From NCBI GenBank assembly GCA_947503885.1, contig CANNFD010000004.1, forward strand, positions 62,001 through 126,000: a DNA stretch of 64,000 bases, written 5' to 3'. A program made the translations under genes and the position numbers. This document shows, in pieces, positions 57,325 through 61,391 of the stretch; within the stretch, counting starts at the first letter, position 1; each line of letters starts with the position of its first letter. This stretch comes from an uncultured Olleya sp. (GTDB lineage: Bacteria; Bacteroidota; Bacteroidia; Flavobacteriales; Flavobacteriaceae). The notes under the pieces were generated by a model, which worked only from the letters and a program-made list of their open reading frames with translations, was not told where the DNA came from and ran no database searches.

Positions 57325-57942
57325 ATGGAATTTTCTTCAAAACTTCTTGAAAATGCAGTAAACGAGATCTCGCAATTACCAGGTATTGGTAAGCGTACGG
57401 CATTGCGTTTAGCATTACATTTATTACGTCAGCCCAAAGAGCATACTCATAATTTAAGTCATGCACTGCTTAATATGGTTAACGATTTAAAGCTGTGCAA
57501 ATCTTGTCATAATATTAGCGACAACCTGTTATGTGACATTTGTTCTAACCCATTACGAAAAGAAGATGTCGTTTGTGTAGTCGAAGATATTAGAGATGTC
57601 ATGGCTATTGAGAATACAGCATCGCATAAAGGGTTGTATCATGTGTTAGGCGGAAAAATATCGCCAATGGATGGTGTTGGACCACACGATTTAAACATAC
57701 CTAGTTTAATACAAAAAGTAAAAACAGGAAAAATAAAAGAATTGATATTTGCATTAAGTCCAACTATGGAAGGTGACACCACTAATTTTTATATTTATAA
57801 GCAGATAAAAGATTTTAATATTGAAACATCAACAATCGCTAGAGGAATATCTGTTGGTGACGAGCTTGAATATGCAGACGAGATTACTTTAGGACGAAGT
57901 ATATTAAATAGAATTCCGTTTGAGTCTTCCTTGAAATTATAA
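57325..57942 (+). CDS. recR: Recombination mediator RecR
   Basis: 205 residues. The helix-hairpin-helix region is [18 protein letters not shown] (18-35). The C4 zinc site is at [16 protein letters not shown] (57-72) and the Toprim domain follows with [11 protein letters not shown]. RecR with RecF and RecO loads RecA at gaps. It is complete and typical. A glycosyltransferase gene starts 10 bases after its stop, so recR heads a transcript that continues into a polysaccharide-type gene cluster. Confidence 0.95.
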
Positions 57943-57952
57943 TTCTATAATA

Positions 57953-58759
57953 ATGGAGCATCTATTAGCCGTTTTATTGCCACACTACAATAATATTGAA
58001 GGGCTAGATGCTACGTTACAATCTTTGACAACTGAAGCTGAAGATTTTACAGTTATTATTATCGATGACGGTAGCGATAACCAAAAGCAGGTAGAAACAC
58101 TAGTCCAATCGTATAAAAAACAACTGCATATCACTTTAATCAAACAGCCAATATGTTTAGGTGTTACAAAGACACTTAATAACGGATTAACCTATATATT
58201 AAAACAAAAACATTTTATTTATATAGCAAGGATTGATGCAGGAGATCGCTGTATAAATAACAGGTTTAAGAAGCAATTAGAAGCATTTAAGTTGGACTCA
58301 AATTTAGGGATAGTCTCAAGTTGGGTCACTTTTGTGGATACAAGTAATACATTCTTGTTTAACTTTAAGCCACCAACAACTTATAAAAAAATAAAGCAAA
58401 ATATTTATAAATACAATCCATTTGTTCATCCAGCTGTAATGTATAAATCAGAGGTGGTGGAGACTATCGGGATGTATCCCGAAAACTACCCTGCATTAGA
58501 GGATCATGCTTATTTTTTTAAAATGATTAAGCAATATAAAGCCAAAATTTTGCCACAATTTCTTTTAGAATATGAAGTCAACCCTAAAAGTATTTCCGCT
58601 TTAAAGCGAAAAGAGCAAACCAAAAGTAGAATTAAGTTATTTTTAAACAATTATAACTTTACATTTACAGCAACTGTTGGGTTAATTAGGGCTTTTATAA
58701 CTAATATTATACCTCAAAAAACAATGCTATATTTTAAAAAGACTGTTTTCTATAAATAA
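57953..58759 (+). CDS. Family 2 glycosyltransferase
   Basis: 268 residues. The GT-A fold is shown by LLAVLLPHYNNIEGLDATLQ (4-23), the nucleotide motif IIIDDGSDN (35-43) and DAGD (95-98), in the place of the DxD metal motif. The acceptor-side region has ALEDHAYFFKMIK. There is no membrane helix, so it would act at the inner face of the cytoplasmic membrane. The sequence between 58593 and 58611, inside the frame, is a copy of the TTTCCGC palindrome family, translated as ISALKR. It begins a tight cluster with a phosphoribosyltransferase and a HAD protein. Confidence 0.85.
   Translation: MEHLLAVLLPHYNNIEGLDATLQSLTTEAEDFTVIIIDDGSDNQKQVETLVQSYKKQLHITLIKQPICLGVTKTLNNGLTYILKQKHFIYIARIDAGDRCINNRFKKQLEAFKLDSNLGIVSSWVTFVDTSNTFLFNFKPPTTYKKIKQNIYKYNPFVHPAVMYKSEVVETIGMYPENYPALEDHAYFFKMIKQYKAKILPQFLLEYEVNPKSISALKRKEQTKSRIKLFLNNYNFTFTATVGLIRAFITNIIPQKTMLYFKKTVFYK
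58593..58611. repeat. TTTCCGC-family palindrome inside the glycosyltransferase gene
   Basis: TTTCCGCTTTAAAGCGAAA, a near-perfect palindrome, lies within the reading frame and is translated as part of ISALKRK. The frame is unbroken. It suggests that the repeat family can occur within genes. Confidence 0.5.
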
Positions 58760-58760
58760 A

Positions 58761-59336
58761 ATGGAGGTAATTACATTACATAATAATGCTTTTAAAGAGG
58801 ATAGTTTGAAGCTGATTTCAAAACTAAAACTTAAGCCAGACTTAGTATTAGGTGTTTTAACTGGTGGAGGCTATTTGCTTGAGGTAGTAAAAAATGACCC
58901 TCAACTAAAAAACAGCTTATTTAAGTCAGTAACTTTACAACGAAAGTCAACAAGTATAAAAAAAAGATTTTTTAAAAAAGTATTGCCCCTTTTGCCATAT
59001 CTTATTTTAAATTGGTTGCGTATTAAAGAATCTAAGCAAGTAGAAAAAAAAATACATAAATTAAATGTAAACGCGCTTAAAAATAAGAGGGTTGATTTCA
59101 GTTTTAATGAAATACAGATAAAAGGTATAAAAAACATTCTTATTATTGATGATGCTTTAGATACCGGAAAAACAATGTTTATTGTTAAAAACAACTTGCA
59201 GCATTGGTTTCCAAATGCAAAAATAGAGATAGCTGTAATAGCCTGGACAATTGAAGCTTCAATTGTAAAACCAGATTATTACCTATATAAAAAAAAACTA
59301 GTTCGATTTCCGTGGTCTAATGATTATAAACGATAA
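58761..59336 (+). CDS. Phosphoribosyltransferase-like protein
   Basis: 191 residues. The PRPP-binding signature is ILIIDDALDTGKT (126-138), preceded by the pyrophosphate-loop-like GVLTGGGYLLEVV (31-43). The C terminus FPWSND is like that of other type I PRTases. A basic hydrophobic stretch near 65-90 (KKRFFKKVLPLLPYLILNWLRIK) may bind the membrane or a lipid-linked acceptor. It starts one base after the glycosyltransferase stop and overlaps the HAD gene by 17 bases. The neighbours suggest the ribosyl group goes to a glycan rather than to a base. Confidence 0.75.
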   Translation: MEVITLHNNAFKEDSLKLISKLKLKPDLVLGVLTGGGYLLEVVKNDPQLKNSLFKSVTLQRKSTSIKKRFFKKVLPLLPYLILNWLRIKESKQVEKKIHKLNVNALKNKRVDFSFNEIQIKGIKNILIIDDALDTGKTMFIVKNNLQHWFPNAKIEIAVIAWTIEASIVKPDYYLYKKKLVRFPWSNDYKR

Positions 59337-59958
59337 AAATTCAAATAAAAAAGTACTTATAGTAGATTTGGATGGTACGTTATATAGCATTAATACCTTT
59401 CATTATTTTATTAAGTATTTAGTCCGATTTAGTATAGTAACTATTAATATATTATTGTTGTTAAGGCTTGTAAAGGCTATGATTTTAAGGGTGTTGGGTG
59501 TTATAGAGCATTCCAAAATGAAATTTATAATTCTAAAAGCAATCCAAAACAATCAAAAGATAAATTATAACGCATTTGTAGATAGTATTGTAAACTATAA
59601 AAATCAATTACCGCAATTGGAGAATTCTAGTTTTGATATTAAAGTATTAGCTACAGCTGCACCTAGTTGTTATGCAACTATTATTGCTAAAAATGAGGGG
59701 TTTACTTCATGTTTAGCAACTAATTTTACAGAGACTAGTTATCATCAAAACTTTGAAAATGTAAGAGAGGTAAAAAAACAAAACGTACTTGGTTATTTAA
59801 AAACAAAAGGTGTGTTGGATGTACATACAATTATAACAGACCATTATGATGATTTACCTTTAATTAAAATTTCAAAACAAGTAATTTTAGTCAATCCTAA
59901 TAAAGAGACACAAAATATACTACTTGAAAACCAAATATTTTTTAATATTGCAAAGTAA
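59320..59958 (+). CDS. HAD-superfamily phosphatase-like protein
   Basis: 212 residues. Motif I is VLIVDLDGTLYS (Asp16, Asp18), motif II lies in VLATAAPSCYA (Thr112 or Ser116), and motif IV is IITDHYDDLPL (Asp174, Asp177/178). Between motif I and the core there is a hydrophobic cap region (YLVRFSIVTINILLLLRLVKAMIL, about 33-56) that could be a membrane-associated helix. HAD enzymes of this size often remove phosphate from sugar phosphates. In this cluster it could dephosphorylate a phosphoribosylated glycan. Translation is coupled to the PRTase gene. Confidence 0.8.
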   Translation: MIINDKNSNKKVLIVDLDGTLYSINTFHYFIKYLVRFSIVTINILLLLRLVKAMILRVLGVIEHSKMKFIILKAIQNNQKINYNAFVDSIVNYKNQLPQLENSSFDIKVLATAAPSCYATIIAKNEGFTSCLATNFTETSYHQNFENVREVKKQNVLGYLKTKGVLDVHTIITDHYDDLPLIKISKQVILVNPNKETQNILLENQIFFNIAK

Positions 59959-60071: not shown

Positions 60072-61391
60072 ATGGCAAGATTTGAACTTAAATTACCAAA
60101 AATGGGAGAGAGCGTTGCAGAAGCAACAATTACCTCTTGGTTAAAAGAAGTTGGTGACACTATAGAAGCGGATGAGGCAGTTTTAGAAATTGCAACAGAT
60201 AAAGTAGATAGCGAAGTACCCAGTGAGGTAGATGGTGTTCTAGTTGAAATTCTATTTAACGTTGACGATGTTGTTCAGGTAGGCCAAACTATTGCTGTAA
60301 TTGAAACAGAAGGAGAAGGTGGTGTAACTACCGAAGAAGCTCCTAAATCAGAAACAAGTTCTGCACCTGCGCCAGTTGCAGCTCAAGAAGTTGCTAAAAC
60401 TGTAGAGGTTGCACAACAAGCAACCCAACCATTAGCATCTAACGATGATCGCTTTTACTCGCCATTAGTAAAAAACATGGCTAAAGCAGAAGGGATTTCT
60501 CAATCAGAACTTGATGCAATTAATGGAACAGGAAAAGATGGTCGTGTTACTAAAAACGACATGATTACTTATTTAGAAAACAGAGGTAATCAACCAGTTA
60601 AAGCTGCAGCACAAACTACAGCAGCGACTCCGTCAGCACCAAAACAACAAGCAAAACCTAAGGCACCAACTCAAGTTGCTGCAGGAGATGAGATTATAGA
60701 AATGACCAGAATGGGTAAATTAATTGCTCATCATATGGTGGAATCTGTTCAAACTAGTGCTCACGTACAAAGTTTTATTGAAGCAGATGTTACTAATATA
60801 TGGAATTGGCGTAAAAAAGTAAAAGATAGCTTTGCAAAACGCGAAGGTCAAAACTTAACTTTTACTCCAATATTTATGGAGGCTGTTGCTAAAGCATTAC
60901 GTGACTTTCCAATGATGAATATCTCTTTACAAGGAGATACTATTGTCAAAAAGAAAAATATAAACCTTGGTATGGCTGCAGCTTTACCGGATGGTAATTT
61001 AATTGTACCAGTTATTAAAAATGCAGATCAACTTAATTTAGTTGGTATGACTAAGCAAGTTAATGATTTGGCAGGACGTGCTAGAGATGGTAAGTTGTCG
61101 CCAGACGATATACAAGGTGGGACTTATACAGTAACTAACGTTGGTACTTTTGGTAGTATAATGGGTACGCCAATTATCAACCAACCACAAGTGGGTATTT
61201 TAGCGTTAGGTGCAATACGTAAAGTGCCAGCGGTTATTGAAACACCTGATGGCGATTTTATCGGAATCCGTTACAAAATGTTCCTATCTCACAGTTATGA
61301 TCACAGAGTTGTAAATGGTGCATTAGGAGGTCAATTTGTTAAAGCGGTTAAGGATTATTTAGAAGCTTGGGATAAAAACAGAGAGATATAA
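60072..61391 (+). CDS. 2-oxo acid dehydrogenase E2 (dihydrolipoyl acyltransferase)
   Basis: 439 residues. The lipoyl domain (1-80) has the target lysine in LEIATDKVDSEVPS. A linker rich in Ala and Pro is followed by the E3/E1-binding domain (about 128-170, SPLVKNMAKAEGISQSEL). The catalytic domain (about 215-439) ends with SHSYDHRVVNGALGGQFV, which contains the HxxxDG-type active site as HRVVNG. Only one lipoyl domain is present. Whether it serves the pyruvate, 2-oxoglutarate or branched-chain complex cannot be decided from sequence; no E1 or E3 gene is adjacent. Confidence 0.9.
   Translation: MARFELKLPKMGESVAEATITSWLKEVGDTIEADEAVLEIATDKVDSEVPSEVDGVLVEILFNVDDVVQVGQTIAVIETEGEGGVTTEEAPKSETSSAPAPVAAQEVAKTVEVAQQATQPLASNDDRFYSPLVKNMAKAEGISQSELDAINGTGKDGRVTKNDMITYLENRGNQPVKAAAQTTAATPSAPKQQAKPKAPTQVAAGDEIIEMTRMGKLIAHHMVESVQTSAHVQSFIEADVTNIWNWRKKVKDSFAKREGQNLTFTPIFMEAVAKALRDFPMMNISLQGDTIVKKKNINLGMAAALPDGNLIVPVIKNADQLNLVGMTKQVNDLAGRARDGKLSPDDIQGGTYTVTNVGTFGSIMGTPIINQPQVGILALGAIRKVPAVIETPDGDFIGIRYKMFLSHSYDHRVVNGALGGQFVKAVKDYLEAWDKNREI

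Follow-up and report, generated by a model that had tools for sequence, protein, structure and literature searches.

The closest described counterparts of the locus considered here are the gPRT/PRP ribofuranosyltransferases, namely those of Klebsiella O4 and O7, CriT/CrpP of Haemophilus influenzae type b and Cj1432 of Campylobacter jejuni, as presented in the literature drawn on here (which includes PMC12096443, PMC11231755 and PMC13171606). According to the report on CriT and its homologues, this enzyme is a larger protein decorated with helical bundles and its acidic pair is split over two loops (D680 and E818) (PMC10299916). A second group comprises the UbiA-type polyprenyl phosphoribose synthases, such as Rv3806c and ORF15 of Citrobacter youngae. 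Here we analyze adjoining genes for a GT2 glycosyltransferase, a type I phosphoribosyltransferase (PRTase) and a HAD phosphatase in 64,000 nucleotides of DNA from an uncultured Olleya sp. (this whole stretch is referred to as “the window”; its contig is part of a 3.04 Mb genome). The PRTase and the HAD probably constitute a ribofuranosyltransferase dependent on phosphoribosyl pyrophosphate (PRPP) and its accompanying 5'-phosphatase, a reading to which we assign a probability of about 0.6.

All three open reading frames (ORFs) exist at the coordinates given in a preliminary description of this DNA, and all are on the forward strand, as are the other window features below. They encode the GT2 of 268 amino acids (57953..58759; PF00535, 7e-13), the PRTase of 191 amino acids (58761..59336; PF00156, 9.4e-6, just under the Pfam cut-off) and a HAD-IB phosphatase of 212 amino acids (59320..59958; PF12710, 1.1e-7), so that the family labels also hold. 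The GT2 and PRTase genes are spaced by +1 base and the PRTase and HAD genes by −17 bases. The motifs are where they had been placed: DDGSD (residues 38–42) as the N-terminal DD motif of the GT2 domain, the PRPP-binding motif DDALDTGKT (PRTase residues 130–138; 59148..59174) and HAD motif I, DLDGT (residues 16–20; 59365..59379), the latter two being confirmed in family alignments (of 66 sequences for the PRTase).

A scan of the genome-contig collection with the single PRTase sequence returned no relative; a profile/alignment scan gave 65 confirmed loci (L022 to L086), or 66 with the window, most of them matched across almost the entire PRTase. Note that the seed patterns of the profile scan came from the PRPP-motif region of the window, which partly builds in the conservation seen there. 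The plasmid and phage collections contained no PRTase match at 1e-5. In 64 of the 66 loci the next gene downstream of the PRTase, in the same orientation, encodes a HAD relative, typically with an overlap of 4 to 28 bases; the exceptions are L068 (contig end) and L078 (convergent). The HAD of L077 is spread over two frames, and PRTase positions for L058, L079, L084 and L085 were taken from the profile scan. A PRTase-HAD fusion suspected in L085 was dropped, since its PRTase and HAD ORFs do not share a frame. In L078 (10001–11129), the sole convergent case among the 66, the two genes overlap tail to tail. A tree of 64 PRTases places 26 rows, including that of the window, in one strongly supported group; the other rows are from Bacteroidales, Campylobacterota, Pseudomonadota and one metagenome-assembled genome (MAG) labelled Bacillota. 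Among the 26 flavobacterial loci (the window and 25 others), a GT2 gene precedes the pair in only 8, and in 4 of these it is of another kind than that of the window (23–24% identity). Conservation applies to the PRTase-HAD pair, with the GT2 as an optional partner, and not to the GT2-PRTase-HAD trio that had been proposed as a set.

Outside Flavobacteriaceae the pair is commonly preceded by a glycosyltransferase gene. Two of the 40 loci concerned (L053 and L080) start at a contig end; in the 38 assessable loci such a gene is directly upstream of the pair in 28 and within two genes in 30. The families of these upstream genes were assigned by BLAST linkage, with a Pfam check on representatives (L051, L045, L055, L052 and L084). 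The pair lies among GT4, GT2 and Bac_transf genes in L052, amid GT4 genes and an epimerase gene in L055, and amid GT2 and Bac_transf genes in L084. L054 has a gene resembling a lipopolysaccharide galactosyltransferase, together with GT4, epimerase and Bac_transf genes placed by sequence family only, and L045 and L048 have GT2 and rmlC/rmlD-like genes (the latter by sequence recognition only).

In Flavobacteriaceae the pair occupies the gap between recR (57325..57942; TIGR00615, 1.6e-66), the conserved left flank, and a dihydrolipoyl acyltransferase gene, here called “sucB” (60072..61391; best NCBIfam E2-component model 1.8e-110, all under curated cut-offs), the conserved right flank. Many relatives have a single GT2 gene in this gap, a point missed by the initial view that the cluster is outside any recognisable polysaccharide locus. 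recR is directly before the PRTase gene in 17 of the 26 flavobacterial loci, and L028 has neither recR nor GT2 in that position. The 26 include L031, recorded as a Chlorobiota MAG, whose genes are ordered as in flavobacteria and whose PRTase groups within those of Flavobacteriaceae; its contig is probably mis-binned. Within the genus of the window, 3 of 10 genomes have GT2-PRTase-HAD. The other 7 match a different GT2 of 365 amino acids (PF00535, 7.3e-24), which in 6 of them is alone in the recR-sucB gap. One genome of the genus (G587; L122, 732–7962) carries a run of GT2 genes, two WaaS/CpsH-type genes and a DltB-like acyltransferase gene on the recR side; its 365-residue GT2, truncated where the stretch read ends, is on that side too, with those glycosyltransferase genes.

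The pair and the 365-residue GT2 exclude one another. Of 199 genomes of the family, 119 have this GT2 (at 1e-60), 7 have an orthologue of the PRTase and none has both; for the PRTase, 13 matches were obtained at 0.001, of which the 7 at 6e-44 or better were counted as orthologues and the 6 weak ones (3e-7 to 6e-4) were left uncounted. Likewise, none of 23 genomes with the PRTase matched the GT2 at 1e-30; this set excludes the L028 genome, contains one probable duplicate (G581 and the genome of L022, which seem to be a single strain) and includes several of the 7 orthologue genomes. Every one of 60 Winogradskyella genomes carries exactly one of the two, the PRTase in 8 and the GT2 in 52 (in G616 the GT2 match spans residues 1–263). 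The loci read from these, 18 of the 52 and all of the 8, are arranged recR-GT2-sucB and recR-PRTase-HAD-sucB without a GT2, respectively. The GT2 gene is within 150 bases of recR in 30 of 30 genomes taken down the match list and in 0 of 4 odd-looking picks.

Of the 75 flavobacterial stretches read, 73 have recR as left flank and hold both flanks (L028 and L122, which do not, were left out). In all 73 the gap contains either the 365-residue GT2 or the pair, although the loci were chosen for holding one of them, and the 44 GT2 loci were fetched for their GT2 rather than drawn at random. After duplicates L022 and L046 were dropped, a tree of RecR and SucB proteins from 71 loci was built by a quick method; the two states require 12 changes on it, at least 5 of which are forced by well-supported branches. 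This count is a fairer measure than the Fisher values obtained (0.0014, 3.9e-10 and 1.7e-9), which ignore relatedness and the last of which compares genomes with a sample that partly shares them.

The PRTase has both the PRPP motif and the PRTase core and belongs to the type I PRTases; PF00156 was found in 44 of 44 relatives scanned. D130, D131, A132, D134, G136 and T138 of the PRPP motif are kept in 66 of 66 sequences, in part an effect of the search patterns. Outside these patterns P79, R87, T163, R182, W185 and D188 are also invariant. A basic insertion of about 40 residues precedes the PRPP motif throughout the family. Its core in the window (residues 60–105; 58938..59075), with conserved K67, P79, R87 and E90, has a net charge of +11, and the charge is positive in all 66 sequences, which confirms the basic patch of the preliminary description. 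The best solved relatives among the matches listed are purine PRTases (1vdm, 4z1o and 7kl6), a result unfavorable to what had been proposed. The acceptor-side hood (residues 163–188; 59247..59324) nevertheless has T163 (66/66) and L180 (63/66) at the HMMER-aligned positions of a Lys and a Trp of 1vdm, which we take to be the purine-contacting residue and the stacking residue of the hood; R182 stands against a Val. Judged by these positions, the family departs from the Lys and Trp of the 6-oxopurine PRTase hood (the alignment with 4z1o puts the purine-contact Lys one position away). Given the replacements at two purine contacts and the long conserved insertion, we do not regard the purine-PRTase fold as fatal to a role in ribofuranosyl transfer.

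The HAD has motifs I to IV (D16, D18, T/S112, K152, D174, D178) and a helical cap and is a member of the HAD-IB group. All 65 sequences compared have D16 and D18, and 64 of them have K152 and D178; residue 112 is T or S. N25, R57, H64, K68, Y118 and H175 are conserved in addition. With E up to 0.01 allowed, TIGR01490 matches all 34 HAD relatives scanned; the HAD of the window falls short of its curated cut-off. In the model (mean predicted local distance difference test, pLDDT, 91.3) the cap (residues 26–89; 59395..59586) is formed by helices 26–40, 44–58, 64–75 and 83–89. It is hydrophobic in the window (best 19-residue Kyte-Doolittle mean 2.27); the family median is 1.54, with 1.6 or more in 29 of 64. 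The closest structures among the matches listed are 3fvv and phosphoserine-phosphatase-type enzymes, which is unfavorable to the earlier claim or leaves it undecided; no PRP structure was recognised among them, PRP having been compared by structure listings alone. With its PRPP motif complete and its catalytic residues kept, respectively, the PRTase and the HAD both look active.

Linkage of PRTase and HAD across phyla, upstream glycosyltransferases, clusters of polysaccharide type and exclusion with a GT2 are what would be expected of a PRPP-dependent ribofuranosyltransferase with its phosphatase. In the proposed mechanism, the PRTase would move ribose-5-phosphate from PRPP to a hydroxyl of a glycan that faces the cytoplasm and is probably lipid-linked, after which the HAD would strip the 5'-phosphate from the transferred ribose. 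Since the pair replaces one glycosyltransferase where no GT2 is present, we argue that it performs the transfer itself. At the recR-sucB site it would take the place of a GT2 by which, presumably, the same glycan receives a different sugar, and the two alleles would yield different glycan forms; the simplest reading is that the ribose-adding pair and the GT2 are alternative decorations of one glycan. The GT2 of the window would attach a further or neighboring sugar. The original idea of ribofuranosylation is partly supported: as a class of chemistry it is favored by linkage, context and exclusion, whereas kinship to known ribofuranosyl enzymes is not supported and the trio is not obligate.

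Several observations weigh against this reading. The closest solved folds of the PRTase are those of purine enzymes, as noted, and the known ribofuranosyl enzymes were not matched by it (among the best 60 of 107 rows in one listing); nor were their structures recognised among the best 50 rows of each PRTase or HAD structure listing, an absence that shows little. The PRTase model is weak, with a mean pLDDT of 69.4 and a hood below 50. The family is also thinly spread: a search of 395 genomes of the phylum gives one strong match, in the genome of the window, and 25 further hits at 7.7e-6 or weaker. Neither gene was detected in 73 of the 199 family genomes at the thresholds used, and for this reason the recR-sucB site does not behave strictly as a two-allele system. 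On the RecR and SucB tree the PRTase loci of Winogradskyella, 8 in all, are one clade; the 8/52 split in this genus may be a single event, and the recurrence comes from the whole family. Finally, 8 of the 38 non-flavobacterial loci are without a glycosyltransferase gene within two upstream genes: L058, L061 (recR), L066 (GNAT), L069, L073, L074, L078 and L079. In L069 (Rickettsiales MAG) and L073 (Pseudomonadota MAG) the pair adjoins genes that by eye resemble response-regulator genes, and the acceptor may differ there.

The order recR-PRTase-HAD is also found in L061 (9315–11214), a Coprobacter MAG of the Bacteroidales; either the recR linkage is ancient or it arose on two occasions.

The chief competitor to transfer onto a glycan is a polyprenyl phosphate acceptor, which we consider unlikely. 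The PRTase would then load polyprenyl phosphate with ribose-5-phosphate, the HAD would dephosphorylate it, and the lipid-linked ribofuranose would be flipped across the membrane to serve a GT-C enzyme on the outside, as in the three-component system of Citrobacter. The basic insertion in 66 of 66 PRTases and the hydrophobic HAD cap would suit a membrane substrate, and such a route is established for UbiA-type enzymes (PMC11127046). The PRTase is, however, of type I and without UbiA features. The UbiA-HAD model NF006088 weakly matches 24 of 34 HADs (best 3.7e-8), but the general HAD-IB model fits all 34. In the loci read, the recR-sucB gap contains no flippase or GT-C gene beside the pair, which moreover stands where a GT2 would. 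Hydropathy of the PRTase is low (best 19-residue mean 1.07 in the window; 1.6 or more in 3 of 66), and together with its 44/44 PF00156 matches this does not accord with an integral membrane UbiA fold.

It is more doubtful still that the product is a small ribosylated metabolite, or that the pair has a regulatory role, with replacement of the GT2 reflecting a variable site rather than a common function. The recR side is indeed variable, as the several glycosyltransferase and other genes by recR in G587 illustrate, and the lack of a nearby upstream glycosyltransferase in L069, L073, L074 and L079 would fit. Yet in 73 loci, selected as described, the gap holds one or the other, and at least 5 switches with the two never together exceed what simple insertion would yield, because insertion need not remove the GT2. 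We give least credence to nucleobase salvage or nucleotide turnover, in which the PRTase would make a nucleotide and the HAD would be a nucleotidase. This has the purine-type fold behind it, but T163 and L180 replace the Lys and Trp of 1vdm, the insertion is extra, and neither the glycosyltransferase context nor the exclusion with a GT2 would be accounted for. The genome also has hpt, pyrE, upp, pyrR-like genes and prs elsewhere, which we count in favor of ribofuranosyl transfer, although this survey was not exhaustive (the PRTase of the window was itself absent from one listing).

The same genome encodes a hypoxanthine phosphoribosyltransferase fused to an adenylate kinase in a single reading frame (L125, 877–1989) and a second PyrR-like protein (L126, 1468–1968) beside that of L128. 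A defense function was also considered: the PRTase matches the PADLOC models PRTase_III-A (6.7e-7), ShosT (3.3e-6) and PsyrT (7.8e-4), and no PADLOC model was hit by the GT2 or the HAD with E up to 0.1. We take the matches of the PRTase as general similarity among PRTases.

Among the literature matches listed (titles and starts of abstracts), no type I PRTase like this one is described as a glycosyltransferase, and nothing useful emerged on recR-linked glycosyltransferases or on the ribose and O-glycans of related organisms. Should the pair act as a ribofuranosyltransferase, a common fold of nucleotide metabolism would have been recruited for surface sugars and the set of enzymes that introduce ribofuranose would grow. 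A PRTase gene followed by a HAD gene, beside a glycosyltransferase gene, would then be a simple genomic marker for ribose in bacterial glycans yet to be studied. The allele swap at recR-sucB would be a natural experiment, with close kin expected to differ in one sugar.

The pair resembles the gPRT/PRP systems in combining a PRTase with a HAD phosphatase and in its association with glycosyltransferase or polysaccharide genes; PRPP is the established donor there and the presumed donor here. It differs in that the two enzymes are separate genes rather than domains, no sequence match was seen among the matches listed, and D130 and D131 are adjacent in the single PRPP motif of a 191-residue protein, unlike the split acidic pair of CriT. 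Kinship with these enzymes is not supported. With the UbiA-type synthases the pair would share the PRPP donor, and with ORF15 of C. youngae it shares a HAD phosphatase partner; those synthases have an integral membrane UbiA fold where this PRTase is of type I. From typical HAD-IB phosphatases (SerB/PSP, 3fvv) the HAD is set apart by its additional conserved residues. The small 6-oxopurine PRTases of Pyrococcus horikoshii (1vdm), Sulfolobus solfataricus (4z1o) and Helicobacter pylori (7kl6) have the same core fold and PRPP motif, and alignments show an FPW hood motif common to the PRTase of the window, 1vdm and 4z1o; the differences are the hood replacements, with T163 and R182 invariant and L180 nearly so, the extra residues before the PRPP motif and the HAD neighbor in nearly all loci. 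A broader proposition, for which we see even odds, is that a type I PRTase of the purine-salvage kind has become a glycan ribofuranosyltransferase with a HAD of its own in several phyla, that in flavobacteria the entire cassette trades places with a sugar-nucleotide GT2 at a single chromosomal site and so changes one glycan sugar, and that the enzyme would represent a third, structurally separate PRPP route after those of gPRT/CriT and UbiA.
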